NCBI GenBank assembly: GCA_947627955.1
Contig: CANQXZ010000015.1
Coordinates: 1 to 34,829, forward strand
Direction: 5' to 3'
Origin: an uncultured Clostridia bacterium
Lineage (GTDB): Bacteria > Bacillota > Clostridia > Christensenellales > Borkfalkiaceae
DNA: 34,829 nucleotides
The notes under the pieces: model-generated
What the model saw: the letters and a program-made list of their open reading frames with translations, nothing else
Databases searched by the model: none
Told to the model about the DNA's origin: nothing
Position numbers and translations under genes: made by a program
In this document: in pieces, positions 15,980 through 34,540 of the stretch
Layout of the letters: each line of letters opens with the position of its first letter
How positions within the stretch are numbered: the stretch's first letter is position 1

Positions 15980-16297
15980 ATGGACGTCATAAAAAAGCTC
16001 GACGATTTAAGGCTTGAAAGAGGCATGAGCGTTTATCGCCTTGCCGAGCTTTCGGGGCTCAGCCAATCCACCCTTGCCAACTCCTTCTCGCGCAAGATCC
16101 AACCGTCGATAAAAAACCTCGAGCTGATACTCGCGACGCTGGGCGTTTCCATGTCGCAGTTCTTTGCCGAGGGTGAACAGCAGATGATCCTTTCTACCAA
16201 GGAAATACAGATGATCAAAAATTATCGGGTGTTGCCCGCGGAGGTACGCGATTCGCTTGCCGAGACAATAAATTTTTTACCCAAGCTCATGCGATAA
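15980..16297 (+). CDS. XRE/Cro-CI family transcriptional regulator
   Basis: 105 residues. A helix-turn-helix of HTH_3 type spans about residues 4-60: LDDLRLERGMSVYRLAELSG, then LSQSTLANSFSRKIQPS as turn and recognition helix, and LELILATLGVSMSQFF. The short C-terminal tail (ILSTKEIQMIKNYRVLPAEVRDSL) is common in small Clostridial XRE repressors and probably serves dimerisation. The ATG at 15980 follows GGGGTGAG by 3 nt; the frame opens farther upstream but inside the promoter. It is divergent from the collagen-like lipoprotein gene with overlapping promoters, so autoregulation plus control of the lipoprotein unit is the likely arrangement (inference). Confidence 0.88.
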   Translation: MDVIKKLDDLRLERGMSVYRLAELSGLSQSTLANSFSRKIQPSIKNLELILATLGVSMSQFFAEGEQQMILSTKEIQMIKNYRVLPAEVRDSLAETINFLPKLMR

Positions 16298-17948: not shown

Positions 17949-18909
17949 TTTCTTTTACCGCCTTATCAACATTTTCTTTATTTCCCATTGCAGAGATAGC
18001 GCCGAAATTCATTGTCGTATACGCGCCGCACTTGCACGCAAAGCTGAGCATATACATGTAGGCAAACGGAGCGGTGAGCAGATTTTCGCTCGTGGCGCCC
18101 TTTTCGAGAAGCTGTGCTATGAACGCCCCGAAAAAGGAATCGCCCGCGCCCGTGGTGTCAACGGTTTTTACCTTGTATCCGCTGCACTCCGCGCACCTGC
18201 CGTCGGCAAGATACAGTTTAGCGCCCTTGCCGCCGTTCGTCAGAAGCAGTATTTTGAGGTTGCCCGTGAACATGGCTTTCACCGCGTCGGCGCCTTCGAG
18301 CCCCGTTATGAACGAGAGCTCGTCCTCGCCGACCTTTATCACGTCGGCATACCCTGCGAATTCCCTGACGACCTGCCTCAGCTCCTCCGGGTCCTCCCAG
18401 AGGTTGAGCCTGAGGTTGGGGTCGAAGCAGACCATCGCACCCTCCTCCTTCGCCTTGTCGATGAGATACTTGTGCGTAGTCCTCGCCACGAAGGTCTTCA
18501 ATGCCACGCTGCCGAATTCGAGTATGTCGCCCTTTTCAAAGACGACGTCCTTGAAGTCGCCTATCGTGAAGTGCAGGTCCGCCGCGGCTTTTCTGAAAAA
18601 GCTGAACTCCCTCTCGCCGTCCGCCGTGAAGCTGACGAACGCGAGCGAGGTGTCGTATTCGCTGCTCTTTGAGATGTACGATACGTCCACGCCCTCGTTT
18701 TTCAGCGTTTCTATGAGGAAATCGCCGAACCCGTCGTTGCCGACCTTGGAGAGATACACCGCCTGCCCGCCGAGTTTTACGGCTTGCACGCACACGTTCG
18801 CGGGGGCTCCGCCCGCCTTTTTGACGAACTGCTGGGTATCCTTCAAAGAGGCTATGCCCACAGATTGGAAGTCGATTATCAGTTCGCCCACAGAATAGAG
18901 TTTACTCAT
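17935..18909 (-). CDS. PfkB-family sugar kinase (fructokinase-like)
   Basis: A 324-residue ribokinase/PfkB-fold kinase. The N-terminal VGELIIDF, substrate-lid motif KKAGGAPANVCVQAVKLGG (about 30-48), NDGFGDFL, CFDPNLRLNLW and the C-terminal anion-hole/catalytic motif DTTGAGDSFFGAF (Asp251-, catalytic Asp257) are present. The match to bacterial fructokinases, together with two GH32 genes directly upstream, suggests that it phosphorylates fructose released by the fructosidases. Specificity within PfkB cannot be proven from motifs. It overlaps the secreted GH32 by 8 nt upstream and the ATPase by 14 nt downstream, consistent with translational coupling. Confidence 0.88.
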   Translation of the reverse strand: MSKLYSVGELIIDFQSVGIASLKDTQQFVKKAGGAPANVCVQAVKLGGQAVYLSKVGNDGFGDFLIETLKNEGVDVSYISKSSEYDTSLAFVSFTADGEREFSFFRKAAADLHFTIGDFKDVVFEKGDILEFGSVALKTFVARTTHKYLIDKAKEEGAMVCFDPNLRLNLWEDPEELRQVVREFAGYADVIKVGEDELSFITGLEGADAVKAMFTGNLKILLLTNGGKGAKLYLADGRCAECSGYKVKTVDTTGAGDSFFGAFIAQLLEKGATSENLLTAPFAYMYMLSFACKCGAYTTMNFGAISAMGNKENVDKAVKENGIC

Positions 18910-20416
18910 AGAATTTTATGTCCTTGATCTTTGCCGCCGCCTTATTGGAGTAGAACGCAAAGTTGGTTTCTTTCATGTCGGGGATCCTCGCGGTCAGGGC
19001 AACTTCGCCGTCCAGATAGAGGGTGACCACCTCGCCGTCTATAATGACGTCGGCTTTATAGCCCTTGTCCTTTTCGAACGTGAACCCGACTTCCGCGAGG
19101 GGCGCGCCGTACCTTAAAATGCTGGACACGCCGTTGTAGCAGACAATGCGGTTATTCGCCGGCTCGAACGCGATAACCGCGCTGCCGAGCCTGTTGTTGT
19201 ATAAGCCGTCCAGCCCGAACGAGAGCCCGAAATCTCCGCTTTCGCCGCCCGCCTCAGCCGTAAAGCTCATTCTCGTGACGCCCGCCGCAAGTTCGCCCAT
19301 GCCGTGCGCCTCGAACTTTTCTCCCGTGAACTCATAGCCGACCGCGCTTCCGCCGTCCGCTGCGGGATACGCCTTTTCGTGCGAGAAGAAATCCTTATAG
19401 TTTTGCGGCATGACGGCGCAGAGTTCGCCGTTTTCCTTTTGCACGAGCTCGTGCGTGACGAGGTTGCCGCCCCAATCGAACCCGCCCGTGCTGCCGCCCG
19501 AAAGTCTGGCGCACCACGCGAACGCGTAAAGCTTATCGCCCGCCTTTTCGGGTCTGCCCGCGTAGAAGCCGCTGGCGTCTATCGTATCGCGGGGGAAGCT
19601 CTTCCACTCGCCCGACGTATCCGACTTGCTCTTATATAGATAGTGCGTGACCCTGTTTTCGCCCTGCTCGCTGAACATGAGATAGCAGTAGTCGTTGTAT
19701 TCGATATATGAGGGGCACTCCATGTTGTAACTGCCGTAGGGATTCGTGAAGTAAACGCCCTCGTCTTGCCATTCTTCCCACGTCGCCGAGAGGGTCGTGG
19801 AGGAAAACCTCTTTATCACGGCGTTGCCCCTGTCCCTCGTCATGACGAGCATATAGTAGCAGTTATCCGTACTGTCATGGTAGACGTATGGGTCGCGGAA
19901 GTCGTCCTCATAGCCGTAGAGCTTGAAATCCTCGTCCTTGACCCATCTCACCTGATCTTCGCTCGTGGCGTGGCGGATGACCTCTACAAACTTCAGATTC
20001 ACGTCATCGTCGTGCGCCTTGCCGTTGTGCCCCGTATAGAAGCAGTGATACAGCCCGTTTTCGTCCTTTATGAAGGATCCCGTGCCGAGCGCCGCGTCCA
20101 CCGAGTCCATCTCTTCCTCGAAGTCCAGCGCAACGCCCTCGTCCGTGTAGTGGACAAAGTCGGAGGTGGTGAGGCGAGCTATGGGGTGATAGAAGAGGCT
20201 GTTCGTGCCCGTGCTGTTGCGGAGGTGATAGATATTCATCACGCCGTCGTCATAGAAGGGCATAACGTCGCCCATTGCGACTTCGAGCGAATCCTCCATC
20301 GAGGAAACGGGGAAAACGTTCGCGCCGCCCTGGTCTACGCCAGCCGCCGGGGCGCATGCCGCCGCTCCGAAACATATTGCCGCCGCCAAAACGGGGATAG
20401 CCCACACTTTTTTCAT
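18902..20416 (-). CDS. Secreted GH32-type lipoprotein with atypical nucleophile motif
   Basis: 504 residues with a lipoprotein-type signal (GAAAC, Cys21). The five-bladed propeller of GH32 is supported by FRDPYVY (Arg174-Asp175-Pro176, transition-state stabiliser) and MECPSYIE (Glu233-Cys-Pro, acid/base). The usual WMNDPNG nucleophile motif is absent; at the matching place stands AMGDVMPFYDDG, with Asp50 as candidate nucleophile. A similar GDxMPFY opening is known to me from a divergent GH32 subgroup. A C-terminal beta-sandwich (about 375-504) resembles the GH32 C-domain. It is likely an exo-acting fructan hydrolase tethered to the cell surface, feeding the importer encoded in the same operon. 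Overlaps: 4 nt with the upstream GH32, 8 nt with the kinase. Confidence 0.8.
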   Translation of the reverse strand: MKKVWAIPVLAAAICFGAAACAPAAGVDQGGANVFPVSSMEDSLEVAMGDVMPFYDDGVMNIYHLRNSTGTNSLFYHPIARLTTSDFVHYTDEGVALDFEEEMDSVDAALGTGSFIKDENGLYHCFYTGHNGKAHDDDVNLKFVEVIRHATSEDQVRWVKDEDFKLYGYEDDFRDPYVYHDSTDNCYYMLVMTRDRGNAVIKRFSSTTLSATWEEWQDEGVYFTNPYGSYNMECPSYIEYNDYCYLMFSEQGENRVTHYLYKSKSDTSGEWKSFPRDTIDASGFYAGRPEKAGDKLYAFAWCARLSGGSTGGFDWGGNLVTHELVQKENGELCAVMPQNYKDFFSHEKAYPAADGGSAVGYEFTGEKFEAHGMGELAAGVTRMSFTAEAGGESGDFGLSFGLDGLYNNRLGSAVIAFEPANNRIVCYNGVSSILRYGAPLAEVGFTFEKDKGYKADVIIDGEVVTLYLDGEVALTARIPDMKETNFAFYSNKAAAKIKDIKFYE

Positions 20417-21774
20417 TGTCTTTTACCTATTTCCTTTATATGGATTTCAGATATGTTGCCTTTGGTTTCGAGGCTGTAATCGCCGTCGATGTAGATCCTG
20501 CTGCTTATGGTCTCCCTGCCGCCGTCCACGAACACCTCTATGCTCGAGACGTCGAGGAGGACGCGCACTTCGCAGTTTTTGTACCTGCCGTTGGTCTTGC
20601 GCACGCAGCCGAACAGGTTGTTTGTGCGCAGTGTGTCGAGATATATCCCGCTGTCGTTGCCGACTGTCACCTCGCCGTCAGCCCCCCTCACGGTGAGGGA
20701 GCCTTCGCCGTTGAATACGAGCGTTATGTCCGCGCACTTGGGCACGCCGCCTTCGGCAGGCTCGGTATGGTAGCCTGCGAGGCTCCCCACTGGGGTCTGA
20801 AAAATTTCGCCATCCTTTACCGACACCTCGCGCGGTATCGAGAAGGCGCCCACCCAGCCGTGGTTCTTCTCGCGCGTGGGATACTTTTTCTCCCACATCT
20901 CCAGCCAGCCTATCATTATGGGCTTTTCCGCACCCCTTATGAATTGGGGGGCGTAGAAGGAGTCGCCCTTGTCTATCTCGCGGATACAGTCTATCTTCAT
21001 CTCTCCCCTTTCGAAGTCGAGATCGCCGACTATGAAAACGCTCGAATTTATGTTCTTGAAATCGTTGCCCCTTTCGGGAACGTTGCAGCCCGAAACTATT
21101 ATCACGTCCTTGCCGTCTATCCTGTAATAGGAGGGGCACTCGCCCATGTCGCCGAGCTCGTAATAGGGTCCCAGCGTGAACGCATATTCCAGCTTATCGG
21201 GGTTTACTCCCCTGAGGACGACTATCACGCCCTTATCGGCAACGCGGTCCTTACCGCCCACGAATACGTAATAAGTATCGCCTATTTTCACGGGGCAGGG
21301 GTCGCGGAAGTCCGTCCTGCTCAGGTTTTCGGGAAGGCTCTCGTTATCGAATACCTTTGCGCCCTGCCCGAAGCAGAAGCCCGCCGCCGATTCCGCCCTG
21401 AACACCTCTTCGCGCTTGCCCGCGGCGTTTTCCGTGTGCTGCGTGTAGAACGCGCAGATCTTGCCGCCGTACTCTATCGCGCCGCCCGAATAGGCGCTCG
21501 CGTCCTCCAGATCGGGCTTTAACGCCACGCCGTCGTCGAAGTAGTTTACAAGGTCGTCCGAAACGAAGTGCCCCCAGCACATCTTCCCCGGCTCGATCGC
21601 ATACGGGTTGAATTGGTAATACAGGTGATACCTGCCCTTGAAGTATATCAGCCCGTTGGGGTCGTTGAGCCAGCCGATGGGCGGCATCATGTGATAGTTG
21701 AGCCTGTACTCGTTGTTCACCGTCCGTCTGGACTTTTCTATATAGTTGTTCGCCGTCTGAATTTTGTCCGTCAT
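20413..21774 (-). CDS. Cytoplasmic GH32 beta-fructofuranosidase
   Basis: A 453-residue enzyme without signal peptide. All three GH32 catalytic motifs are canonical: PIGWLNDPNGLIYF (nucleophile Asp38), RTDFRDPCPV (Arg157-Asp158-Pro159) and MGECPSYY (acid/base Glu212). The C-terminal beta-sandwich includes SSIEVFVDGGRETISSRIY, typical of GH32. It hydrolyses terminal beta-fructosyl bonds in sucrose or imported fructo-oligosaccharides. No phosphotransferase (EIIBC) gene is nearby, so unphosphorylated oligosaccharides brought in by the ABC importer are the likely substrate. It lies between the Ig-like lipoprotein (stop and start adjacent) and the secreted GH32 (4-nt overlap). Confidence 0.93.
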   Translation of the reverse strand: MTDKIQTANNYIEKSRRTVNNEYRLNYHMMPPIGWLNDPNGLIYFKGRYHLYYQFNPYAIEPGKMCWGHFVSDDLVNYFDDGVALKPDLEDASAYSGGAIEYGGKICAFYTQHTENAAGKREEVFRAESAAGFCFGQGAKVFDNESLPENLSRTDFRDPCPVKIGDTYYVFVGGKDRVADKGVIVVLRGVNPDKLEYAFTLGPYYELGDMGECPSYYRIDGKDVIIVSGCNVPERGNDFKNINSSVFIVGDLDFERGEMKIDCIREIDKGDSFYAPQFIRGAEKPIMIGWLEMWEKKYPTREKNHGWVGAFSIPREVSVKDGEIFQTPVGSLAGYHTEPAEGGVPKCADITLVFNGEGSLTVRGADGEVTVGNDSGIYLDTLRTNNLFGCVRKTNGRYKNCEVRVLLDVSSIEVFVDGGRETISSRIYIDGDYSLETKGNISEIHIKEIGKRQ

Positions 21775-23454
21775 TTAACCGTCCAATTGGTTGTTTTTGA
21801 GGCACACCCGCACGTCCGTTATCTCTACGGTAACGCCGTCTGAAAGCGGGTTTATCTGCCATGCTATCTTGTGCAGTCTGTCCGAATCGCTGCCGTTGCA
21901 CATGAACGTGAATATCGTCCAATCTTCCGTGACCGTGACCTGCTGCCATAAAATGGTGGGGTCCCAGCCGCCCGCAACGGGGATCGCCACTACCATGCTC
22001 ACGGGCGCGCTCGCCTTGGCTCTGAATGTTATGGCGTAGTTTGCGCCGCTTCCCGCAACGAGGAAGGACTGGCTCATTATCTCCACGTCGCCGCCCGTGC
22101 CCGTAATTATGAAGTTGCCTTTGTCCGTTGTAAGCGTTCCCGTTTTGCCGGGAGTGGAGGTGAAGTCGCCTATTTCATAGATATCCTTGCCGGCGTCGCC
22201 GAGCTTTTCATATACTTTCAGCCCGCTCAGCGTTATCATGTTCTTCTGCGTGCCCGACTGTACGTATATCCAGAGGCTGCCGACATGCGCCGCGTCGATA
22301 TTCAAAGTCTCTTCCACCTTGCCGTCCGAGGGCTTTATTGCTTTTTTTATCACCTCGGAATCATCCGTCCACTGCTCAAACTGGAACAGTATCTCGTAGT
22401 TGTTCTCTTCCTCTCTCACTTCATGTTCGCACTTTATGTCGAAGGAGACAGTGTATTCCACGCCCTCTTTCAGCGCGATCTCCGTATTTATGAACATGCC
22501 GCCGCACCATAACGCGTCGGGTTTGGTGCTCGCCTTGGTTATTTCGAGGTGCGCCTCTGCGCCGTCCTGTGAAGCGAACGCATTGCCCTCGAGCCCGGGA
22601 CCGTTTTCGGTGTCTATTCTGGGAAGCACCTTGCCCGTGAAACTGAAACCCGCCGTGCGGTCGACCTGCAATCCCTTTTTCTGCGGGTAGTCGCACTCCA
22701 CGCCCTTTACTACCCAATCCACCGAGCCGAGCCCGCCGAGGCAAAGGTCTATGACTATATCCTCGGGGTTACCGTCTTTATCGAGGGCGGGGAAACAGGT
22801 GAAACTTATCACGTTTTCCCCTCTCACGACGCGCGCCTCGGCGCAGTCGCTGCCGTCTGCCATGACCTTTATCTTGCCCTCGGCGTTGGAGTTCACCGTG
22901 TAACTGAAAGTGCAGGGCTTGCCGCTCGAAGCGTCGTATGTGTCGCTCATGGCATATGTGCGGGAGAGGACTATGTCCTCGGCTATCTGCCCGCCTTCGG
23001 CTTTGAGCACGAAGTTGCCGTTCACCATGCCGCAATTTTCTATGCTCGCCGCGCCGTAGGAAAACGCCTCGAAGCCCTCGGGCATGTTGAACGTCCTGTA
23101 CGTCTCGCGGTCGACGACGTCCACGAAGGCGCGCTTCTGCGCCGTTCTGCCCTCGCTGTCCGTTATCTTGTAGTTTACCGAGTACTCGCCCACCTCGTCG
23201 AAGCGGGCATAGCCGTCCTTTACTTCGACATGCGGGCTCACAGTTATTTCGAGCTCGGGGGTTATGTCCCCGTCCTCGGTGTCGAGCGCCGCAACGCCGT
23301 CGAGAAAGTCCACCGTGCTGTTAACAATGCACTGCACGTCCTTGACGCCCACTACGCTGGGAGCCTTGTTTGCGGGCTCCGCCGGCGCGGAAGCGCAACC
23401 GGCAAACAGCATTGCCGCGAGCACGGGAATTGTCAATATCTTAGTCTTTTTCAT
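21775..23454 (-). CDS. Surface lipoprotein with Ig-like and carbohydrate-binding-like modules
   Basis: 559 residues, lipoprotein signal with lipobox FAGC (Cys20). Residues about 32-115 form an Ig/cadherin-like module of DUF5011 type (VDFLDGVAALDTEDGDITPEL ... YSVNYKITDSEGRTAQK). Two jelly-roll-like regions follow, about 245-420 and 425-559. The second contains ANYAITFRAKASAPVSMVVAIP and VTEDWTIFTFMCNG, a pattern seen in CBM4/9-like binding modules. No catalytic motif was seen. Its place between YesL and the GH32 enzymes, and surface anchoring, suggest a glycan-binding role for the fructan system (inference). It overlaps the YesL gene by 14 nt. Confidence 0.75.
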   Translation of the reverse strand: MKKTKILTIPVLAAMLFAGCASAPAEPANKAPSVVGVKDVQCIVNSTVDFLDGVAALDTEDGDITPELEITVSPHVEVKDGYARFDEVGEYSVNYKITDSEGRTAQKRAFVDVVDRETYRTFNMPEGFEAFSYGAASIENCGMVNGNFVLKAEGGQIAEDIVLSRTYAMSDTYDASSGKPCTFSYTVNSNAEGKIKVMADGSDCAEARVVRGENVISFTCFPALDKDGNPEDIVIDLCLGGLGSVDWVVKGVECDYPQKKGLQVDRTAGFSFTGKVLPRIDTENGPGLEGNAFASQDGAEAHLEITKASTKPDALWCGGMFINTEIALKEGVEYTVSFDIKCEHEVREEENNYEILFQFEQWTDDSEVIKKAIKPSDGKVEETLNIDAAHVGSLWIYVQSGTQKNMITLSGLKVYEKLGDAGKDIYEIGDFTSTPGKTGTLTTDKGNFIITGTGGDVEIMSQSFLVAGSGANYAITFRAKASAPVSMVVAIPVAGGWDPTILWQQVTVTEDWTIFTFMCNGSDSDRLHKIAWQINPLSDGVTVEITDVRVCLKNNQLDG

Positions 23455-24124
23455 TTTCTTTCTCCATTTTATCGCGTTTTACCGCGCCCTTTTCGTCGAG
23501 ATAGTCGTCCGCGTTTTCCTTTTTTCTGAGCTCGAACACGCTCGTTTTCAGCGCCTTGGCTTTCAGGCGGTAGAAGTTTTCCGTCATCATCCGGGTGATA
23601 ACCATCGGCGCGAAGTACAGCGTTACCGCCACGAGATAGGGATAGAAGAGTATCAGCGCCACGACGCCCGCTATCAGCAGAACGGCTATTAGGCTGCGCC
23701 ACAGCGAGCCGAACAGCATCATTACGCCGTTATAGAGCAGCTGGGGGAACTTCACTTCCATGTTGACTATCACCGTGGGGGCGGTAGCCAGATACACGAT
23801 CCCGACGATCAGAGCCACAACGCTCACCGCGAGCACGAAATAATTCACGTTGGCGGGATGGGTGTTGAAGAAGTATATGTTCAGTATGGGCACGACGACG
23901 ATCACGAGCTGGAATATCGTATAGATTATGAGTATCTTCCAATTTCTGCCTATCGTCGTGAAGATATCTTTGAACCGCCGCGCGTCCATGCCTCGGGAGA
24001 AGTAGCCCGTGACCCCCACTATCATGGGGACGAAAAATATCACGCTCGCGGCGGAAAGGGCAACAAGCACCGTGATCACAAGAAATTCAAGCGCATAGTC
24101 GCCCAATATCCGCAGACCTTTCAT
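23441..24124 (-). CDS. YesL-like (DUF624) membrane protein
   Basis: 227 residues with five or so hydrophobic segments (about 10-40, 60-85, 95-120, 140-175) and a highly charged cytoplasmic tail (KKENADDYLDEKGAVKRDKM). Topology, the short cytoplasmic patch MDARRFKDIFTTIGRNWK and the genomic setting beside LplABC-type sugar transporter genes match the DUF624/YesL family, whose biochemical function is unknown. Proteins of this family recur in Firmicute oligosaccharide-uptake operons, so an accessory role in transport is likely. It starts 25 nt downstream of the solute-binding protein gene. Confidence 0.65.
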   Translation of the reverse strand: MKGLRILGDYALEFLVITVLVALSAASVIFFVPMIVGVTGYFSRGMDARRFKDIFTTIGRNWKILIIYTIFQLVIVVVPILNIYFFNTHPANVNYFVLAVSVVALIVGIVYLATAPTVIVNMEVKFPQLLYNGVMMLFGSLWRSLIAVLLIAGVVALILFYPYLVAVTLYFAPMVITRMMTENFYRLKAKALKTSVFELRKKENADDYLDEKGAVKRDKMEKENEKD

Positions 24125-24148: not shown

Positions 24149-25750
24149 TTAAACCTTTTTTTCGGTAGCAGTGAGATACCTCTTATACGCGTCGTTGTTT
24201 ATCTTCAACACGGCGTCCAACGCAGACTTGTTAGTGTTCAGCATTCCCTGCCACGACTCGCGCGTGGGGTCCTCGAGCGTTATGCTCTTTGTGAACCAGC
24301 CCGAGATGTTGTTCGCGAGCATCGCCTCGTAGGTGTTGAGCTCTTTCAGCTCCTGCTCGGTGTAGTTGAGGTTGGGAATGGGCTTTATGCCCTCTATGGT
24401 GTAAGGCTTGACGTAATTTTCGAGGTTTTCGAGCCTGAGCTTTGCGCGTGATTCCATCTCCACGGAACTGTTCCACACTTCCTCTGTGAGATATACCACG
24501 CCGTAAGGGGCGTTCTTCATTCTGAAATCGTCGGCGCTCTGGTCGCCGTGGTCGTTCTGCGGAATGAGCTTGCCGCCCACTTTATTGGGCAAAAACGCCC
24601 CCGATTTTATCGAGCCGTAGTTGAGCTGCGCCGAATAGTCGGGCTCGAAAAACTTATCGAAATAGGACAAAAGGCTTTCCTTGTCCGCGCAGGTGGAGAG
24701 CACTACGCACTCCCCCTTTTCGATCTCGAGCTCGTTGCTCATGCCTACGTATCTGTTGCCGTCGTCGTCTTTAAGGGGCAGGACTATTATATAGTCGTCC
24801 CTGAGGTCCTTTGCGAGCACCGTGTCCTTTTCCCACCAATAGAACGCGCCGTATCTGCCGTCCTGCCCGCGGGCGAGGAATTCGATGTCGCTCTGCGTGA
24901 ACGACGAGGTGCGGATGAGCTTTTCCTTGTACCACTCGCGCATTTCGCACACCGCGTCGAACCACTTTTCGTCCTCTATGGTGGAGATTATCGTGTCGTC
25001 CTTTATTATCTTATGGTCCCTGTTTTCGGGAACGCCGAAGGAGGCTATGAAGTCGCTCTCGTTGCCCTGCCAATTGCCGCTGACGAACGTGAGGGGCACC
25101 GTTTTGCCGTCTCCCGCAAAGTCATGGTCGCGGAACTTCTCCAATATGGCTTTGAATTGGCTCCTCGACAGATCGAGCCCGTCTTTGAGCATATCCGCGG
25201 TGAGTTCCACGCCCGCAGGCATGTCGTTCTCCTCGATCAGCTTCTCTATCCACGCCTTGTTTATATAGAGTATGTTGGGATAGGCTTTGAGCCCCATCTC
25301 CTCCACTCTCGGCAGGGAATATATGTGATGGTCGGGGGATTCGAGCGCTTCGCGTATGTCGGGGCGCTTTTCGAGTATCTCCGAGAAGTTGGGCATCACG
25401 TCTAAATATTCGTCGATAGCCACTATCCTGCCGCGCCTGCCGTAGTCGTACAGTTTGAGGTTGGAAAAGCCCGTATGATATATCGCGTCTATGCCCTTGG
25501 TGCCGACGGGGTCGGTGGTGTTGCTGTATTGGGTGGAGTTCTTGTATATCCACTGCACCTCTATCCCCGTATCCTCGGCAAGCTCCTTGAAAACGGGCAT
25601 GGTGTTATAGTCCTTTACGGAGTCCTCTTTTACCGTGAGCACCACGAACTGCGCGCCCGAGGCTCCCGCGCGGCTCGCCGCAACCGAGAACGCCACAACT
25701 CCCACGAGCCACAGTACCGCAGCCACTACGCCTATAATTATCTTCTTCAT
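24149..25750 (-). CDS. Sugar ABC transporter solute-binding protein (LplA-like)
   Basis: 533 residues, the large type of extracellular solute-binding protein that pairs with LplB/LplC permeases for di- and oligosaccharides. The body shows the usual layout: N-lobe strand FVVLTVKEDSVKDYNTMPVFKEL, ANPNILYINKAW-like strand (AYPNILYINKAWIEKL), and FGVPENRDHK and AFYWWEKD regions. The N-terminus MKKIIIGVVAAVLWLVGVVAF is hydrophobic but has no lipobox Cys; residues 25-33 (SRAGASGA) could be a signal-peptidase-I site. The protein is thus either secreted free or held by an uncleaved signal anchor. The gene follows the two permease genes, 16 nt after the LplC-like one. Confidence 0.85.
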   Translation of the reverse strand: MKKIIIGVVAAVLWLVGVVAFSVAASRAGASGAQFVVLTVKEDSVKDYNTMPVFKELAEDTGIEVQWIYKNSTQYSNTTDPVGTKGIDAIYHTGFSNLKLYDYGRRGRIVAIDEYLDVMPNFSEILEKRPDIREALESPDHHIYSLPRVEEMGLKAYPNILYINKAWIEKLIEENDMPAGVELTADMLKDGLDLSRSQFKAILEKFRDHDFAGDGKTVPLTFVSGNWQGNESDFIASFGVPENRDHKIIKDDTIISTIEDEKWFDAVCEMREWYKEKLIRTSSFTQSDIEFLARGQDGRYGAFYWWEKDTVLAKDLRDDYIIVLPLKDDDGNRYVGMSNELEIEKGECVVLSTCADKESLLSYFDKFFEPDYSAQLNYGSIKSGAFLPNKVGGKLIPQNDHGDQSADDFRMKNAPYGVVYLTEEVWNSSVEMESRAKLRLENLENYVKPYTIEGIKPIPNLNYTEQELKELNTYEAMLANNISGWFTKSITLEDPTRESWQGMLNTNKSALDAVLKINNDAYKRYLTATEKKV

Positions 25751-25766
25751 ACATTTACCCCGCTTA

Positions 25767-26672
25767 TCACTTGAACGAGCCCACGAGCACGCCCTGTCCG
25801 AAATGCTTTTCTATCATAGGATATATGACGAGTATGGGCACGGTCGCGACGATTATCGAAGTAAATTTTATCTGCGTAGCCATGCGCCACTGTTCGAGCA
25901 TGACCTCTCCCTCTCCCGTCGCGCTGACTTCGAAAAGCGATTTGAGCACGGACTGCAGGGGATAGAAGTTCTCGTCTATGTTGAATATAAACGCGTCGAT
26001 GTAGTTGTTCCAATGTCCCACGGCATAGAACAGCACCATAACGCTTATTATCGACTTGGCTATGGGGAGAATGAGGTCGAAGAACGTCCTTATCTCTCCC
26101 GCGCCGTCTATCGCAGCCGCTTCCAGCACCTCGTTGGGAACGTTGGATTGGAAGAACGACTTGCACATGAACACGTTGTACACGCTTACGCCGCCGCCTA
26201 TTATCAGAATGAGGGGGTTCTGGTAGAGCCCCAGAGCGCGGCACACGACGAGGTAGGGCACGAGCCCGCCGCCGAAAAACATCGTTATAATGAGAAGGGT
26301 CATTATGAGCTTGCGGCAGGGGAGATAATCCCTTGAAAGCGCCCAGCCCGCGGGGATCGTGAGCGCCACGTTGAACACCGTGCCGAGCCCGGTATACGCG
26401 AGGGTGTTGAAGTACCCCCTCCATATATCGTCCCTCTTGAACAGGCTGGCGTACCCCGAAAAGGTCACCCTCACGGGATAGAGCCACGCCTCGCCGGTCA
26501 AGACCGCGTCGGGATCGGATATGGACGCTATAACTATATAATAAAGGGGATAGATTATTATCACGGCAAGCAGGAAGAGTATAAACCCGCATATTACGTA
26601 GTACACGTAGTCCGACTTGCTTTCCCTTATCCTGTTTTTCTTCTTTTCAGCTTTTAATTCCTGTACATCCAT
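25767..26672 (-). CDS. Sugar ABC transporter permease (LplC / MalG type)
   Basis: 301 residues with six membrane segments. The cytoplasmic EAA loop EVLEAAAIDGAGEIRTFFDLILPIAKS, which contacts the ATPase, lies near residues 190-216. ISDPDAVLTGEAWLYP and the C-terminal MIEKHFGQGVLVGSFK are typical of LplC/YtcP-like permeases for oligosaccharides. It forms the heterodimeric channel with the neighbouring LplB-like permease, 15 nt upstream. GGGGTGG serves as ribosome-binding site. Confidence 0.92.
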   Translation of the reverse strand: MDVQELKAEKKKNRIRESKSDYVYYVICGFILFLLAVIIIYPLYYIVIASISDPDAVLTGEAWLYPVRVTFSGYASLFKRDDIWRGYFNTLAYTGLGTVFNVALTIPAGWALSRDYLPCRKLIMTLLIITMFFGGGLVPYLVVCRALGLYQNPLILIIGGGVSVYNVFMCKSFFQSNVPNEVLEAAAIDGAGEIRTFFDLILPIAKSIISVMVLFYAVGHWNNYIDAFIFNIDENFYPLQSVLKSLFEVSATGEGEVMLEQWRMATQIKFTSIIVATVPILVIYPMIEKHFGQGVLVGSFK

Positions 26673-26687
26673 AAATCCACCCCGCTA

Positions 26688-27722
26688 TCAGAACATACTG
26701 CTTCCCGAAATTTTCTTGGAAGTGAAGTTGGCTATCACGAGCAGCACCACGTTTATTACGGAGTTGAAAAGTCCCGCCGCGGTGGCTATGCCGTACCGCC
26801 CGTCCGTCAAGCCGACCGTATACACGTATGTGGACAGAACTTCGCTCGTCACCTTGTTTGTGGTCGTCTGCATCAGCAACACTTTTTCGTAGCCGCAGCT
26901 CATGAGGTTGCCCACGGACAAGATCATCATCATTACTATCGTGGGGAGAATCGCGGGGAGGTCTACGCTGAATATCCTCCTGAACCGCGAAGCGCCGTCC
27001 ACCTTAGCCGCCTCGTGAAGGGCGGGGTCGACCCCCGAGAGAGCCGCGATATAGATTATCGCCGACCAGCCGAAGTCCTGCCAGTTGCCCGAGAAAATGA
27101 AGAGGGGTCTGAACGCTTCGGGGGAGAGGAACAGCTTCAAGCCGTTCTCGTCGCCGCCCATCTTTATGCTTAGCTGGTCCAAAAGTCCTTCCGTGCCGAA
27201 TATGAGTTTCAGCATTCCGACGAGCACCACGAGCGAGATGAAGTGGGGCGCGTAATACAGTATCTGCAAACCCTTTTTCACCTTTTTTGCGCGCAGGGAG
27301 TTCAGAAGGAGCGCCACTATTATCGGCAGAGGGAAGCCCACTATGAAGCCGAGTATGCACAGAAGGAATGTATTTTTGAAGTAGTCCCAGAAATTCGGAT
27401 GGGAGAAGAACTCCCTGAAATTGTCCCAGCCTACCCATACCGTGCTGCTGCCTATTATCTGGTCGCCTATAACATAGTCCTGAAACGCCACGAGTATGCC
27501 GTACATGGGCACATAGCAGAAGATTATAACGTATATGAGCGCGGGCAGGATAAACACGAGTATCCATCCCTTTTTCTTGAAGTTATCCTTCCACTTCTCC
27601 CACTTTGTCTGGTTGCGGGTGTCGTGCACGGGGCTGCCGTCGAGCGCTTCGTAAGCCTGCTCTATCAGCTCTTCGTCGACCGCTCCGCTTTCCGCCGCGG
27701 CGGGCATAGAGTCGTTTGCCAT
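26688..27722 (-). CDS. Sugar ABC transporter permease (LplB / MalF type)
   Basis: 344 residues: a cytoplasmic N-terminal extension of about 55 residues, then six membrane segments starting at WILVFILPALIYVIIF. The EAA loop is LHEAAKVDGASRFRRIFSVDLPAIL. QDYVIGDQIIGSSTVWVGWDNF and the C-terminal TVGLTDGRYGIATAAGLFNS are strong LplB/YteP-like signatures. It partners the LplC-like permease. A GGGGGA ribosome-binding site lies upstream of the ATG, 43 nt after the X2-domain gene. Confidence 0.92.
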   Translation of the reverse strand: MANDSMPAAAESGAVDEELIEQAYEALDGSPVHDTRNQTKWEKWKDNFKKKGWILVFILPALIYVIIFCYVPMYGILVAFQDYVIGDQIIGSSTVWVGWDNFREFFSHPNFWDYFKNTFLLCILGFIVGFPLPIIVALLLNSLRAKKVKKGLQILYYAPHFISLVVLVGMLKLIFGTEGLLDQLSIKMGGDENGLKLFLSPEAFRPLFIFSGNWQDFGWSAIIYIAALSGVDPALHEAAKVDGASRFRRIFSVDLPAILPTIVMMMILSVGNLMSCGYEKVLLMQTTTNKVTSEVLSTYVYTVGLTDGRYGIATAAGLFNSVINVVLLVIANFTSKKISGSSMF

Positions 27723-27765: not shown

Positions 27766-28857
27766 TTATTTCTTTCTGGTTTTGGATATTATCGAATACG
27801 CGGCATAGCCTATTATCGCCGTCCCGAATATAGCTATATCTATCCAGAGGAAGAGATGCGTGGATTCTTCGGGGATATCCACGAGCGTTTCCACAGCTTC
27901 GGAGACGGTTACGGAGGTATCGGGTCTGCCCTTTTTGGTGAACAGCTTCACGCTGTGCTCGCCCACCGTGAGGGTGTTCGCGTCCGCCGCCGAGAGGGTC
28001 ACGCGCGTGTCGTTCTGGGCGAAGCCGAACTGCTTTCCGTCGATCAGAAGTTTTGTCACCTCCACGCTGTCGCTCAGCTCGAACACCACGTCCGTATCCC
28101 TGTAATACTTCTCCACCGCGGGCTTAGCCGTGACGGAGGTGAAGTCCGCCGTCACGCGGAAGTTGAAATCGGTAAATGACGTTACCGCCCTGAAAAGATA
28201 TTCCCTGCCCGCTTCGAGCGTTTCGAGATAGCTCTCTTTGACGGTGAGCGCGCCGCCCTCGAACTCATAATCCGCTTTATCTGCCAACATGGTGTTGCCG
28301 TCCGTGAGGTTCACCACTTTCAGCACGTTGTAGCCGCTGCCGAAATAGATATCGCCGTAGGGCGCGTCCGTATCGGTGAAACTCTCGCCTCCGACGGTGA
28401 ACTCCCCGTCCCTTTCCGCCTTTATGCCGCCGCCGGAATACCCGTCTAACTTACAGGTGACTATCGCCACGTCGTCGTCCGCGAATATCTTAGCCACGCC
28501 CTCGTTTACGACCACCGTTAACTTCACGGCGCTCCCCGTTGAAAAGGAGTATACGGCGGATCTGAGCTCCGTTTCGCCCTCCGAATCGCGCACGAGCGCG
28601 ATCTTTCCGCCCTCCGCGTCAGCCACGGCTTTCCAATCCGAGCCATTGCCGTCCGCGCCGAATACGAGGCTCGCCTTGCGCGCCCCCGCTTCGGGAGTGA
28701 GTTCCGCCGAATAGATGAAGTTTTCCGCGTTCATGGCGTAGCTCTCCTCTTCCGCGCGCGCCGCCGTCCACGGGAAAGCTATCCCCGTGAAGAGCGCCGC
28801 GAGTATGAATGCGGCGAGGCATACAAATACGCCACTTTTGGTTTTTACAGGCTTCAT
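27766..28857 (-). CDS. Secreted, membrane-anchored protein with GH32C/CBM66-like and X2-like domains
   Basis: 363 residues, first gene of the operon. A signal peptide (to about residue 35, TAARA) precedes a beta-sandwich at about 45-155 (ASLVFGADGNGSDWKAV ... VKLTVVVNEGVAKIFADDDV) that resembles GH32 C-terminal or CBM66-type fructan-binding domains. Next comes an X2-like Ig module, about 170-235 (LADKADYEFEGGALTVKESY), and another Ig-like module, about 240-320. A single C-terminal transmembrane helix follows (LWIDIAIFGTAIIGYAAYSI) with basic tail SKTRKK. It is an outward-facing protein held in the membrane, perhaps presenting substrate to the importer. No named family was recognised. GGGGGAT acts as ribosome-binding site. 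Confidence 0.72.
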   Translation of the reverse strand: MKPVKTKSGVFVCLAAFILAALFTGIAFPWTAARAEEESYAMNAENFIYSAELTPEAGARKASLVFGADGNGSDWKAVADAEGGKIALVRDSEGETELRSAVYSFSTGSAVKLTVVVNEGVAKIFADDDVAIVTCKLDGYSGGGIKAERDGEFTVGGESFTDTDAPYGDIYFGSGYNVLKVVNLTDGNTMLADKADYEFEGGALTVKESYLETLEAGREYLFRAVTSFTDFNFRVTADFTSVTAKPAVEKYYRDTDVVFELSDSVEVTKLLIDGKQFGFAQNDTRVTLSAADANTLTVGEHSVKLFTKKGRPDTSVTVSEAVETLVDIPEESTHLFLWIDIAIFGTAIIGYAAYSIISKTRKK

Positions 28858-28959: not shown

Positions 28960-28975
28960 TTGTGCATATGCAAAC
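28960..28975 (-). promoter_or_regulatory. Operator box 1 upstream of the sugar operon
   Basis: Minus strand GTTTGCATATGCACAA: an even near-palindrome with perfect core TGCATATGCA. It starts 15 bp upstream of the -35 element; its centre is about 58 bp upstream of the predicted start site. The same box occurs beside lacI. Confidence 0.75.
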
Positions 28976-28992
28976 CGCAGGTAGCGGAATTA

Positions 28993-29008
28993 TTGTGCAT
29001 ATGAAAAA
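28993..29008 (-). promoter_or_regulatory. Operator box 2 upstream of the sugar operon
   Basis: Minus strand TTTTTCATATGCACAA, a second copy exactly 33 bp from box 1 with one weaker half-site. It overlaps the T-run of the upstream gene's terminator. Confidence 0.7.
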
Positions 29009-29035
29009 GCGCGGCGGATCTCTCCGCTCTGCGCT
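29004..29035 (-). terminator. Terminator of the 878-residue lipoprotein gene
   Basis: Minus strand: AGCGC.AGA.GCGGA - GAGA - TCCGC.C.GCGCT, followed by TTTTT (29008-29004). It separates the lipoprotein gene from the downstream operon, which has its own promoter. Confidence 0.75.
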
Positions 29036-29050
29036 CTCCATATGGTTCCG

Positions 29051-31687
29051 TCACACATTGTGCACGGTTATCTGCAACCTGCCCTGCGTCCAGCCGCCTT
29101 CATGGAACAGCACCACGTATACCGTGTCGTCCTTGCCGACGGTCAGATCGCAGTACGCGCTCCAATCGAGCGTGCCCGGATTGAGGTGCTGCACGAACTT
29201 GGTGTTGCGGTCTTTGTCCACAACGAGCACGCGCGCGCTGAAACGGGGATCGCCCGTATAGATCTTTCCGAAGTAAGATACGGTCACCTTCAAGCCGCTT
29301 CCGATATCGTCGGGCACATTGTAGCCCACTACGATATTCTTTTCGTCCATCTGGAAATAGTCTTTCTTTAAGATTATCTTGCCGTTATCGTTCTTCCATT
29401 CGTCCGCTCCGTTTTGGGTGAGCGCGCTGAAAGTGAAGGTGTTGTTGCCGAAGTCGTAACCGTCGGTATAGCCGTACAGCCAATCCCCGGGCGCCGAGGT
29501 GGAGAAATCGTTGAAGAGGTTCCCCCTCTCGGTGACTGCCCCGTTCGTAGCGGTGAGGGTTATGCTGAGCGCGAACGAGCCGCTTACGTTGCTGTCCTTG
29601 TGCTGTATGGCAAAGTATATCTTGTCGCCCGCGGCTACGTCTACCGCATCCCCGTTCACATAGTATTTATCGTATTCCTGCCCGGCGTCATAGATGCCGT
29701 CGTTGTGCTTGAAGCTGTTCTCCGCGCTGACGGTAATTATCCGCACGGTGAACCCGTTATTCTCTTCTTTGCCCTTGAAGCTGAGGTGGATATTCGCCTT
29801 GCCCGCCTCGGGAACGGTGTAGAGTATGCCCGCCATGCCTTCCTCGCAGGTTATCTCGCCGGCGGTGAGCTTTATCTTCCCTTCGTTTGCCGTCCACGCG
29901 CCGTCTGCGTACTCGCCGGGCGTGAAGTCGAAGGTCTCGCTGTTCTCGCCATTGCCCTGTATCGAATGCCCGCGCGCGTTGCCGAAATCATAGTCTATCT
30001 TGCCGTACTGCCATGCGTTGGTCGTCTGGTCGTCGTGGAAGTCCTGCGCATAGTTGGCGGTGGCGGAAGTATACGTTCTGTTGGTGACGGTGCAGGCAAA
30101 GTCGCCATTGTAGTTGTCCCCATCCGGCTCCCTGAACAGCATCACATATATCTTGTCGCCGCTGTTGAGCGCGATATTGGGGAACGTGACCTCCCACTCG
30201 TTCTTGTTCTTGTGGGAGCTGTCTATGCCGAATGTGGCAAAGTCGTAGCGGTATTTGTCTGCCGAATCGGTAACGGTTATCCTTGCGGTGAGATAGGACT
30301 TCTTGCCCTCGGGTCCCTTGAAAGCGAGCCTGAGGTCTGCCTTGGCGTCAGCTTCCGCGGTATAGAGTATAGCCGTCTTCTTGGCGTCGCCCGCGGAGAT
30401 CCAGCCCGCCTTTATCTCAACGCCGCCGTCCGCCGTCCATGCGCCGTTTTCGGCGTTATATGCCGTGGCTTCGGTGAAGTCGAAAGTCTCGCTGTTGCCG
30501 CCGTTGGCTTGTATCTGATGCCCGTGCCGGCTGTCGAAATCGTAATCGACATAGCCGTACTTCCAGCTGCCGCTTACGACGTCGTTGCCGTGGAAGGACT
30601 CAAAGAAGTCGGCATGCGCGGGCATGTATTCGTCGTACTTCGTCTCATCGGCGTGGCAGACAGAGCACTCGTAGTGCTTAACGCCCGCAGCGTTGAGCGT
30701 GGGGGCTTTCTGCACCGCGCCCTCTACTTTGTGCCCGGAAACGGGGAGCTTTTCCTCTCTGGTCTCGCCGCAGCCCTCTTTGGTGCAGGTGTAGGTTCTG
30801 GTACCCTGCACGGTGCAGCTGGATTCCGCGGTGACCTTTCCGCCGTCCCATACGTGCACGCAGGGAGCCGCGATAGTGAAACTGAGGTCGCCGCCCGCTT
30901 TGCCCGTGCCCTTGTTTTCGAACACGAGATAATATGTATAGCCCTGCTCTATGTCCTGAGCCTCTGCCGTGGAATATTCCCAATCCTTTTTGCCCTCGGC
31001 GTTGAGTTCCTCGGGCTCGCCGACTGCCTCTCCCGCGCCGTTTGTCAGCACGAGATAGGCGTCGAGATCGGTCGCGCTCTCTTCGCCCGTGAATTTCACG
31101 GTGACGTTCGCCTGTATCTTTTCGGGCATTTCATCGGCGAATCCGTAGGCTATCACGGCGTGGCTGTCCGTCTCGGAGAGAACGTATCCTCCCGCTATCT
31201 CCACGCCCTGCGCCTTCCATACGCCCTCTTCGGCGGTAGCCTCCGCAAACGTTATATCCCCCGTTTCGGAGGTAAAAGCGGAAGCGTAACCGTATTTCCA
31301 ATTGTTTTTAGCCTCTGCGGAGCCGTAGTACATCTCCTCAAAGTCCGCGTGCGCCGCAACGGGCACGACGTTGGGCTTTTCGCATACGGTGCACTCGTAT
31401 GTCTTTTCCCCGTCATGGCAGAAGTCGGGGACCTTTGTGAGCGTGCCGCCGTCCCACGTGTGCTCCGTCATGCCGATGGGCGCGGTCTTGGTCTGCTTGC
31501 AGCCCTCCACCGTGCAGGAGTACGTCCTCAAACCCTCCGAATGGCACGTGGGCTCCTTGGTGACTACGCCCTCGTTCCATACATGGTCGTGCTCAGGAAC
31601 CGAACCCTTTTCGCATGCGGTGAGCCCCATGGTGGCGCACACCGCTATCGCCGACAAAATGCTCAATACTCTGAATTTTTTCTTCAT
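29051..31687 (-). CDS. Large modular surface lipoprotein (Cys-pair repeats and four homologous beta modules)
   Basis: 878 residues, lipoprotein signal with LTAC (Cys25). Four Cys-pair repeats of the HxWxxGxxTxxPTCxxxGxxTYxCxxxxC kind occur at about 34-66, 75-105, 278-308 and 319-346, in two pairs. Four related ~160-175-residue modules follow or alternate: about 113-272, 357-535, 544-712 and 722-878. Each opens with a WxYGxxxYDF-like motif (WKYGYASAF, WKYGYVDYDF, WQYGKIDYDF, WLYGYTDGYDF) and ends in beta-strand text like GDKIYVMLF or GDKIYFAIQ. Modules 2 and 3 also share GHxIQxNGxNSETFDF. It is probably a cell-surface glycan binder. It is divergent from the LacI-type gene and shares operator boxes with the sugar operon. 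Confidence 0.8.
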   Translation of the reverse strand: MKKKFRVLSILSAIAVCATMGLTACEKGSVPEHDHVWNEGVVTKEPTCHSEGLRTYSCTVEGCKQTKTAPIGMTEHTWDGGTLTKVPDFCHDGEKTYECTVCEKPNVVPVAAHADFEEMYYGSAEAKNNWKYGYASAFTSETGDITFAEATAEEGVWKAQGVEIAGGYVLSETDSHAVIAYGFADEMPEKIQANVTVKFTGEESATDLDAYLVLTNGAGEAVGEPEELNAEGKKDWEYSTAEAQDIEQGYTYYLVFENKGTGKAGGDLSFTIAAPCVHVWDGGKVTAESSCTVQGTRTYTCTKEGCGETREEKLPVSGHKVEGAVQKAPTLNAAGVKHYECSVCHADETKYDEYMPAHADFFESFHGNDVVSGSWKYGYVDYDFDSRHGHQIQANGGNSETFDFTEATAYNAENGAWTADGGVEIKAGWISAGDAKKTAILYTAEADAKADLRLAFKGPEGKKSYLTARITVTDSADKYRYDFATFGIDSSHKNKNEWEVTFPNIALNSGDKIYVMLFREPDGDNYNGDFACTVTNRTYTSATANYAQDFHDDQTTNAWQYGKIDYDFGNARGHSIQGNGENSETFDFTPGEYADGAWTANEGKIKLTAGEITCEEGMAGILYTVPEAGKANIHLSFKGKEENNGFTVRIITVSAENSFKHNDGIYDAGQEYDKYYVNGDAVDVAAGDKIYFAIQHKDSNVSGSFALSITLTATNGAVTERGNLFNDFSTSAPGDWLYGYTDGYDFGNNTFTFSALTQNGADEWKNDNGKIILKKDYFQMDEKNIVVGYNVPDDIGSGLKVTVSYFGKIYTGDPRFSARVLVVDKDRNTKFVQHLNPGTLDWSAYCDLTVGKDDTVYVVLFHEGGWTQGRLQITVHNV

Positions 31688-31764
31688 TTCGACCCCTTCG
31701 ATCTTATTTTATTGATTACGCGGCTGCGCGTATGCGCGAATAGCCGCAAAACCTGTTCGGCAAA

Positions 31765-31793
31765 ATATTATTTAACCGCGCCTTAGGTGTCAA
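31765..31793 (-). promoter_or_regulatory. Promoter of the 878-residue lipoprotein gene
   Basis: Minus strand: TTGACA (31793-31788), 17-bp spacer, TAATAT (31770-31765). Initiation near 31758 gives a leader of about 70 nt. Spacing to the operator boxes is identical to that of the sugar operon promoter. Confidence 0.85.
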
Positions 31794-31808
31794 TGCAAAC
31801 AAAAAAAA

Positions 31809-31824
31809 TTGTGCATTTGCAAAC
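31809..31824 (-). promoter_or_regulatory. Operator box 1 between the lipoprotein and lacI-type genes
   Basis: Minus strand GTTTGCAAATGCACAA, 15 of 16 bases equal to the sugar-operon box 1 and likewise 15 bp from the -35 element. Confidence 0.75.
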
Positions 31825-31841
31825 GCCTGCCCCCGCCAGTT

Positions 31842-31857
31842 TTGTGCATTTGAAAAG
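31842..31857 (-). promoter_or_regulatory. Operator box 2 between the lipoprotein and lacI-type genes
   Basis: Minus strand CTTTTCAAATGCACAA, 33 bp from box 1 as in the sugar-operon region. The pair lies midway between the two divergent promoters, about 58 bp from each predicted start site. Confidence 0.72.
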
Positions 31858-31920: not shown

Positions 31921-32961
31921 ATGAAAAAGGCGGTAACCATAAAGGACATAGCCGAAAGGATTAATCTCTCGCGGAACACTGTTGCAAAGGCGCTCAACGG
32001 GCAATACGTTCCAGAGCGGACGAGGGAGCTCGTGCTCAGAAAGGCGCAGGAGATGAACTATAAATCGCTCAGTTCGACGCACTTTGCCGATGAGGGCGGC
32101 AAGTTCCGCATTCTGCTCGTCTCGGGCAAGCCCCTCAACAACATGAACTACTTCATCCCCCTCGTAAAGGGCATCGAAAATTACTGCTTCGAGAACAATT
32201 ACGAGTTCTTCCAATACACCTATAACGTGAACAGAACGCCGTTCGCTGTCTTTTCGGACTACGTAAGTGAATTGGACCCCGACGGCATAGTGGCGATAGA
32301 GTGTTTCGACAAAAACCTCATAACGAAGCTGATAAATCTCGACAAGCCCATCTGCTTCAACGACTTCACCGCTTACGACCTGCCCTCGGACAGGAATTAC
32401 GACATAATCAGCACCAACGACGAAAAGGCGGTGTGCGACCTCGTCAAACTATTGATAAACAAGTTCCGCGTGAAGTCGTTCGCGTTCGTGGGCGACAGCA
32501 GGCACTGCCTCAGCTTCCACGAAAGATACATGGGGATGCTGAAAGGGATCTTGGGCTCCCACGCGGAGCACTCCAAAAAGGACGACATGCTCTTCAACGA
32601 CGAGGGCTTCGACTACGGCAACGCCGAAGCCATAAAGACGGAGATACTCAAACTCAAAACCGTTCCCGAGTGCTTTATCTGCTGCAACGACTTTGTGGCG
32701 AGAAACGTCTGCCATGCGCTGAAAAGCCTCGGCATAGCCGTTCCCTCCGCCGCCCTCGTGGCGGGTTTCGACAACGTGTCGGAAGCGACGGCGTTCAGCC
32801 CGCGCCTGACCACCTTTTCCACGGACAAGGAATTTTTGGGGCGGGAGACGATGCGCACCCTCGTCCGCAGGATAAAAAATCCCGATACCCCATCGCGGAT
32901 GATCACCGTAGGCACGCAGCTCATACTGCGCGAGTCCACCAACAGACTGCCGCAGCTTTAA
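31921..32961 (+). CDS. LacI-family transcriptional regulator
   Basis: 346 residues, standard LacI length. The N-terminal helix-turn-helix and hinge helix are clear: VTIKDIAERINLSRNTVAKALNG (about 5-27), then YVPERTRELVLRKAQEMNYK. The remainder is a periplasmic-binding-protein-like sensor (about 62-340): FRILLVSGKPLNNMNYFIPLVKGI, DGIVAIECFD, DIISTNDEKAV, FAFVGDSR, PECFICCNDFVARNV, VAGFDNVSEATAFSPRLTTF. The inducer is unknown; context suggests fructose, sucrose or a fructo-oligosaccharide. The AVAKAL-type recognition helix differs from CcpA-like members, so it is probably a local regulator. GGGGGAGG ends 2 nt before the ATG. It is divergent from the surface lipoprotein gene and followed by a strong terminator. 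Confidence 0.92.
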   Translation: MKKAVTIKDIAERINLSRNTVAKALNGQYVPERTRELVLRKAQEMNYKSLSSTHFADEGGKFRILLVSGKPLNNMNYFIPLVKGIENYCFENNYEFFQYTYNVNRTPFAVFSDYVSELDPDGIVAIECFDKNLITKLINLDKPICFNDFTAYDLPSDRNYDIISTNDEKAVCDLVKLLINKFRVKSFAFVGDSRHCLSFHERYMGMLKGILGSHAEHSKKDDMLFNDEGFDYGNAEAIKTEILKLKTVPECFICCNDFVARNVCHALKSLGIAVPSAALVAGFDNVSEATAFSPRLTTFSTDKEFLGRETMRTLVRRIKNPDTPSRMITVGTQLILRESTNRLPQL

Positions 32962-34113: not shown

Positions 34114-34120
34114 TTTGAAA

Positions 34121-34235
<115 letters not shown>

Positions 34236-34464: not shown

Positions 34465-34540
34465 TGGCTCCGCTTGTTGGACTTGAACCAACGACACTTC
34501 GGTTAACAGCCGAATGCTCTACCGACTGAGCTAAAGCGGA
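34465..34540 (-). tRNA. tRNA-Asn (anticodon GTT)
   Basis: 76 nt including an encoded CCA. Acceptor TCCGCTT/AAGCGGA, D-arm GCTC..GAGC, anticodon stem TTCGG/CCGAA with loop CTGTTAA (anticodon at 34507-34505), variable loop GTGTC, T-arm GTTGG-TTCAAGT-CCAAC, discriminator G. It lies between 23S and 5S. Confidence 0.97.

Follow-up and report, generated by a model that had tools for sequence, protein, structure and literature searches.

The usual picture of a local LacI-family sugar regulator is a repressor whose binding to a CG-centered site depends on a hinge helix. Here we describe a conserved branch of this family that is without the hinge motif, has a different predicted site and goes with a nearly invariant promoter frame. 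We studied it in a 34,829-bp stretch of DNA from an uncultured Clostridia bacterium (contig C15 of the source genome G000, 1.65 Mb in 74 contigs), which we call the window, where paired 16-bp boxes lie upstream of a surface lipoprotein gene, itself divergent from the regulator gene lacI, and of a ten-gene fructan operon. If the regulator activates these promoters, they would offer a compact clostridial promoter part inducible by sugar, as well as a simple test case for contact between a LacI-type protein and RNA polymerase.

The closest described systems each share part of this arrangement. CcpA of Bacillus subtilis acts at catabolite-responsive elements (cre) upstream of the -35 element of ackA, pta and ilvB, as an excerpt of PMC3463425 describes, and the LacI-family site here is likewise upstream of -35. 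CcpA differs in being a global regulator that needs serine-phosphorylated HPr and a CG-centered site, whereas the regulator here is local and its paired sites are A/T-centered. GalR at the OE site of Escherichia coli gal is a LacI-family protein acting from upstream via the C-terminal domain of the RNA polymerase alpha subunit (alpha-CTD), according to part of PMC4693257, and resembles what we propose; OE, however, is paired with OI at +53.5, while the two sites here, 33 bp apart, are both upstream. In the survey of Ravcheev et al. (2014), tandem LacI-family sites peak at 13, 22 and 32 bp, and the 22- and 32-bp peaks are read as two dimers binding cooperatively (excerpt of PMC4052901). The sites at 32 bp share with ours a separation of about three helical turns, but here the spacing is 33 bp with few exceptions, the -35 distance is fixed and the center is not CG. 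CytR, like the regulator here, belongs to the LacI family, and its linker is described as flexible in a title in the reference list of PMC3454398. It works with CRP at weak half-sites of variable spacing, in contrast to the single fixed palindrome and rigid pair spacing found here. From the excerpted parts of PMC4052901 and PMC3463425, respectively, LacI sites in tandem at about 32 bp and activating LacI sites upstream of promoters are already known. A local LacI regulon with this fixed frame, or a hinge-less LacI branch so described, did not come up in our searches of open-licence PubMed Central (PMC) papers.

A fixed promoter frame at fructan genes

A first-pass annotation of the window had placed four boxes in two pairs with 33-bp spacing, 15 bp from a TTGACA that a 17-bp spacer follows, and each of these positions proved exact to the base. 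The elements of the two promoters are as follows.

28960..28975, minus strand: near box of the operon promoter, GTTTGCATATGCACAA, with a full-frame pattern match (defined below) at G000:C15:28940-28999
28993..29008, minus strand: far box of the operon promoter, TTTTTCATATGCACAA
28916..28944, minus strand: predicted sigma-A type promoter of the fructan operon, TTGACA, 17 bp, TAGAAT (11/12 consensus matches)
31809..31824, minus strand: near box of the lipoprotein promoter, GTTTGCAAATGCACAA
31842..31857, minus strand: far box of the lipoprotein promoter, CTTTTCAAATGCACAA, whose other side faces the lacI promoter
31765..31793, minus strand: predicted promoter of the lipoprotein gene, TTGACA, 17 bp, TAATAT (10/12 consensus matches)
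Box DNA proposed as the target of the LacI-type protein: TTGTGCATTTGCACAA

At both promoters the boxes are 33 bp apart, start to start, and the near box is exactly 15 bp from TTGACA, which occupies 28944-28939 and 31793-31788. Scanning the window with GTTTGCAWATGCACAA and allowing up to three mismatches returned exactly these four sites; shuffled windows gave a mean of 0.33 sites and reached four in 0 of 100 cases. Across all 74 contigs of the genome, the looser pattern TGTGCATNTGNAAA occurs only at these four places. With the start site derived from the -10 position (7 bases after it), the box centers fall at about -58.5 and -91.5, upstream of the -35 element. The near box is thereby close to what we take to be the position of the activating cre of ackA.

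We examined the conservation of this frame in 93 genomes of the genus, counting as lacI carriers those with a match at E <= 1e-60. All counts, including Fisher values, take genomes and loci as independent and ignore kinship; G and L numbers denote genomes and loci. A LacI orthologue occurs in 20/93 genomes. The first-pass annotation had held that boxes missing where the regulator is kept would speak against a regulon, and the pair is present upstream of lacI in 20/20 carriers, with 33 bp the best among 42 tested spacings. In these loci 15 bp separate the near box from the divergent -35 in 19/20, and 14 bp in G120; TTGAC stands at 15 bp in 18/20, and G010 has TTTACA there. A further 13 pairs at 33 bp are found elsewhere in the clusters, not at lacI, and in each of them exactly 15 bp separate the near box from TTGAC, which a 17-bp spacer to the -10 follows. 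Going by the closest tblastn match, they serve three different first genes: the secreted CBM_X2 gene (G000, G054, G051, G038), a GH32-like gene (G006, G016 and G127, where the pair overlaps the end of a lipoprotein match) and the first permease (G016, G051, G027, G008, G001, G046). In total, the distance between TTGAC and the near box is exactly 15 bp in 31/33 genus promoters.

The spacing is equally constrained. A pattern open to spacings of 18-48 bp found 12 pairs in 11/93 genomes, all at 33 bp and all in lacI carriers, with 0 matches in its reversed control and 0 in the 73 genomes without lacI. Within the 20 loci (357,750 bases), 32 pairs are spaced at 33 bp and at most two at any other spacing from 12 to 80. 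Additionally, a box-independent search for repeated 14-mers (at least 12 matches) gave a spacing of 33 in 26/40 near loci; every other spacing occurred in three at most. Because the box consensus was derived from these same boxes, there is some circularity in the box scores, but none in the spacing or the -35 distance, and the 14-mer search used no consensus.

The full-frame pattern (TGCANAA, 26 bp, TGCANAA, 15 bp, TTGAC) matches 24 promoters in 13/93 genomes: 13/20 lacI carriers versus 0/73 non-carriers, with 0 in the control (Fisher 3e-11, kinship ignored). All 24 matches are on contigs with lacI or the operon's binding-protein gene. The pair tracks LacI orthologues. The frame joins the lipoprotein, the ten-gene operon and lacI, as the first-pass annotation had suggested, and the pattern is a specific means of finding regulated fructan genes in uncultured genomes. 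The 17-bp stretches between the boxes share a mean pairwise identity of 36% over the 33 promoters, with little conserved except A/T richness along one edge. Since these spacers are unrelated and the frame recurs across many genomes, a recent local duplication is ruled out, and the earlier description of a conserved architecture stands. The far box, called a weaker copy, shows no random decay: its distal half reads nTTTnCA in 29/33 genus promoters, and it varies in further loci outside these 33.

Two other explanations were rejected. Chance origin of the boxes is ruled out by the shuffles, the variable-spacing pattern search and the 357,750-base spacing count. A genome-wide regulon is unsupported, with only four sites in the source genome and all 24 genus matches on lacI or operon contigs. 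The loose pattern has lone matches at 8 sites in 8/61 genomes without lacI (G009, G018, G021, G030, G048, G050, G057, G059), which we read as chance because they are close to the level of the reversed control (6 matches in 61 genomes); G015 and G016 have one lone match each, away from lacI. A class-wide full-frame search of 391 genomes returned the window's own two promoters and one lone match each in G249 and G386, both judged chance by their sequence.

Subtracting the 17 loci already in the genus set from 40 near loci left 23 further lacI loci from other metagenome-assembled genomes, including two sets of near copies (L085/L117 and L095/L096). Several relatives' genomes come from rabbit samples, to judge by their names (Lapin). 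Of the 42 spacings, 33 bp scores best in 20/23 of these loci and second best in two: in L106 it ties with another spacing in one scoring, and in L107 another spacing scores higher in one. T(T/A)GAC is found at 15 bp in 14 loci, at 14 bp in 6, and elsewhere or not at all in 3 (L104, L110, L111). The frame is kept in L106-L109, loci labelled Christensenella or Christensenellaceae. L110 (labelled Anaeroplasmataceae) keeps the pair and has no TTGAC near 15 bp, its best hexamer being TTGAAA at 24. In L111 (labelled Erysipelotrichaceae) the boxes are 32 bp apart and TTGAC is at 16, leaving the sum of 48 unchanged, a possible compensating shift. L104 (labelled Bacilli) has a poor pair and no T(T/A)GAC, and a 50-bp spacing scored higher there with one of two consensus strings.

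Some loci depart from the usual gene content. G017 (L182, G017:C1:1-20000) has an operon remnant with no lacI match (E <= 1e-60), first permease or boxes in 20 kb, where the best pair has 8 mismatches; this gene loss is weak support, as its upstream genes are also gone or rearranged. Its second permease is without its start, and the frame opens with a different, signal-like sequence. G015 has lacI and the boxes and no binding-protein match. At L016/L019 (G047:C10:4425-5455) the box pair is intact and the lacI orthologue is broken into two matches that overlap and differ in frame. L065-L069 and L183 were left outside the analysis.

The regulator and its unusual site

31921..32961, plus strand: LacI-type regulator, 346 residues; helix-turn-helix (HTH) with helix LSRNTVAKAL, sugar-binding-type core, no canonical hinge motif

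By domain and fold, the regulator belongs to the LacI family. Its N-terminal LacI-type HTH (residues 6-48) scores 28.0 bits against PF00356, barely above the cut-off of 27, and its C-terminal periplasmic-binding-protein-like core scores 80.2 bits (Peripla_BP_3). Between these two parts LacI proteins usually carry the hinge-helix motif PNxxAxxL. This motif is absent here, with YK(S/G/A)L instead in 13/13 aligned orthologues of the 20 in the genus; the alignment leaves out L005, L007, L013, L014, L015, L072 (stop flagged) and L016 (split). The two other LacI-type proteins of the source genome keep such a motif (PNSMAKRL, PDFYASGL). A structure model has no helix at residues 50-59, where the predicted local distance difference test score is < 50, a weak result obtained without a hinge-bearing control model.

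The box is an even palindrome, TTGTGCA-WW-TGCACAA, whose 16 bp fall in the 16-22 bp range of LacI-type operators; the near boxes of G037, G058 and G107 match it perfectly in both half-sites. The central CG pair is absent, and every near and far box of the 33 genus promoters has an A/T center. For comparison, the excerpted LacI survey lists a CG center for 1173/1303 regulators, a different pair for 49 and a degenerate one for 29 (PMC4052901). The same 16-bp palindrome recurs over all 33 genus promoters, so the half-site spacing is not relaxed in the manner of CytR. The central base pair of a LacI operator is usually read by the hinge, and the missing hinge and the A/T center therefore fit together. 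In hinge region and box alike, the regulator departs from a typical LacI protein.

The LacI-type protein is the best candidate binder of the boxes. The pair persists at loci with a next gene other than the lipoprotein gene (L100, L110, L112, L114-L116); in L100, L110 and L114-L116 the next genes are transporter genes of the same kind, and in L112 there is no operon match other than a PfkB at 31%. We also considered distant LacIs at 25-34% identity (L118-L157, the remainder of the best 80 of 120 confirmed matches), whose loci are related to one another; L121 was dropped from the half-site counts for too little upstream DNA. TGCACAA lies within 260 bp upstream in 21/39 of these loci, compared with a mean of 2.9 and a maximum of 8 in 300 rounds of shuffling and with 30/996 control stretches of the same loci. 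An unguided 7-mer count in these loci placed ATGCACA first (22) and TGCACAA second (21). The shared helix partly reflects how these loci were chosen, as LSRNTVAK was one of two search peptides. These LacIs are mostly labelled Lachnospiraceae or other Clostridia and, by eye, are without the usual hinge motif.

The 33-bp pair was not found in L118-L157, where no spacing is common to more than 2/40 loci, so that the pair frame is seen only in the fructan branch. Tentatively, a wide clostridial LacI clade with helix LSRNTVAK may have dropped the hinge helix and come to read A/T-centered TTGTGCA half-sites. One branch of it would then have turned into an activator dedicated to sugar, functional only when two dimers act together, whose rigid promoter cassette has been placed upstream of different fructan-cluster genes.

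How the promoter module may work

On balance, we favor reading the boxes as tandem LacI sites from which two dimers would activate transcription through contact with RNA polymerase. Two predicted LacI dimers would sit side by side, about three helical turns apart, in a fixed frame of far box, 17 bp, near box, 15 bp, TTGACA, 17 bp and -10. The near dimer would touch RNA polymerase, most likely through the alpha-CTD, within whose reach the boxes should lie. In the right sugar state such class I activation would increase transcription from both the lipoprotein gene and the operon for fructan uptake and cleavage, and the far box, which also faces the lacI promoter, may adjust lacI itself. What the sequences show is the sites, their frame and conservation, the co-occurrence with lacI and the missing hinge motif; we infer LacI binding, cooperativity, polymerase contact, activation and the sugar signal.

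As at class I activator promoters, the site lies upstream of -35 at a fixed distance from the promoter (15 bp in 31/33), which points to contact with RNA polymerase. The term operator used in the first-pass annotation suggests blocking and on this account calls for correction. Over the 20 genus loci, the boxes lie anywhere from 0 to 14 bp from the -35 of lacI. Since this distance drifts and the one on the operon side is kept, selection seems to maintain the contact on the operon side. A rule for B. subtilis, given in an excerpt of PMC3463425, is that cre boxes upstream of -35 activate. Together with the strong -35 and imperfect -10 elements of the operon-side promoters, this rule makes activation the preferred reading.

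Several points weigh against it. The operon-side -35 elements are near consensus (perfect in 24/33), unlike those of many activator-dependent promoters. The -10 element is perfect in 0/33 operon-side and 17/20 lacI promoters, an uneven comparison, the former being read at a fixed gap of 14-15 and the latter at the best of up to 45 positions. As an exception to its rule, the same excerpt of PMC3463425 names the lev operon, repressed by CcpA from a cre upstream of its promoter via the activator LevR, and it places one activating cre at lev downstream. In Caldicellulosiruptor, 12/12 mapped LacI and DeoR regulators look like repressors by site position (part of PMC8579813). Finally, 5/39 of the distant LSRNTVAK LacIs have no TGCA upstream at all, and several Lachnospiraceae loci with the same helix have, by eye, half-sites downstream of -10, a repressor position.

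Some of these points would suit repression by contact. Sugar-free LacI on the same tandem sites might hold RNA polymerase at a near-consensus promoter via the alpha-CTD, in the manner of GalR-OE at gal P1, until sugar releases it. GalR-OE contacts the alpha-CTD to inhibit P1 and stimulate P2 (excerpt of PMC4693257), and a fixed 15-bp distance suits contact of either sign; the near-consensus -35 elements and the Caldicellulosiruptor regulators would also agree with such a mechanism. It would be an unusual arrangement for a local LacI regulator, however, and the imperfect -10 elements suggest promoters needing help, so we rank it as a serious though less likely alternative. Ordinary repression, by steric block or a short loop between the sites, would make the upstream position irrelevant. 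In 12/20 genus loci only 0-1 bp separates the far box and the lacI -35, so lacI itself could be blocked, and the best-scoring lacI -35 in the window is a poor hexamer 14 bp from the far box. On the operon side the sites end 15 bp before -35, and this distance is kept while the lacI side drifts, which leaves a block without contact very improbable.

Activation and both forms of repression assume that LacI is the binder, and the possibility that some other regulator occupies the boxes seems to us slighter still. AraC-type proteins often have tandem-repeat sites upstream of promoters, for which a motif search with a 21- or 32-bp period is described in the excerpt of PMC8579813, and two HTH_18 matches of the AraC type occur in the source genome. 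Both lie on contigs other than that of the window, and the box is a palindrome that tracks lacI and whose half-site recurs at distant same-helix LacIs. A small gene past the operon end, XRE-type by sequence (listed below), could be another binder, but it has a tblastn match in 0/19 relatives' loci, 8 of which extend past the last operon gene.

Gene content of the window

The fructan operon consists of ten tightly packed genes on the minus strand, from 28857 down to 16629, and lacI is divergent from the lipoprotein gene.

29051..31687, minus strand: surface lipoprotein-like protein, 878 residues, the first target unit; open reading frame with lipoprotein-like start MKKKFRVLSILSAIAVCATMGLTAC, no Pfam match
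27766..28857, minus strand: operon gene 1, secreted protein with a CBM_X2-like stretch (open reading frame and Pfam)
26688..27722, minus strand: operon gene 2, ATP-binding cassette (ABC) sugar permease
25767..26672, minus strand: operon gene 3, ABC sugar permease
24149..25750, minus strand: operon gene 4, probable solute-binding protein, judged from where it lies and from its secreted start; no Pfam match
23441..24124, minus strand: operon gene 5, membrane-type protein of 227 residues; no Pfam match
21775..23454, minus strand: operon gene 6, secreted CBM_4_9 protein
20413..21774, minus strand: operon gene 7, GH32; nearest NCBIfam model sucrose-6-phosphate hydrolase, with a score under its cut-off
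18902..20416, minus strand: operon gene 8, second GH32
17935..18909, minus strand: operon gene 9, PfkB-family sugar kinase
16629..17948, minus strand: operon gene 10, UgpC/MalK/MsmK-type transporter ATPase
15980..16297, plus strand: small XRE-type HTH gene

The lipoprotein contains Cys/His-rich motifs and other stretches, both repeated. Its tblastn matches among relatives are 23-44% identical, and those of the adjoining permeases 72-88%. The contig ends in an rRNA operon on the minus strand, with a 5S rRNA at 34120-34234, a tRNA-Asn at 34465-34540 and the end of a 23S rRNA at 34756-34829.

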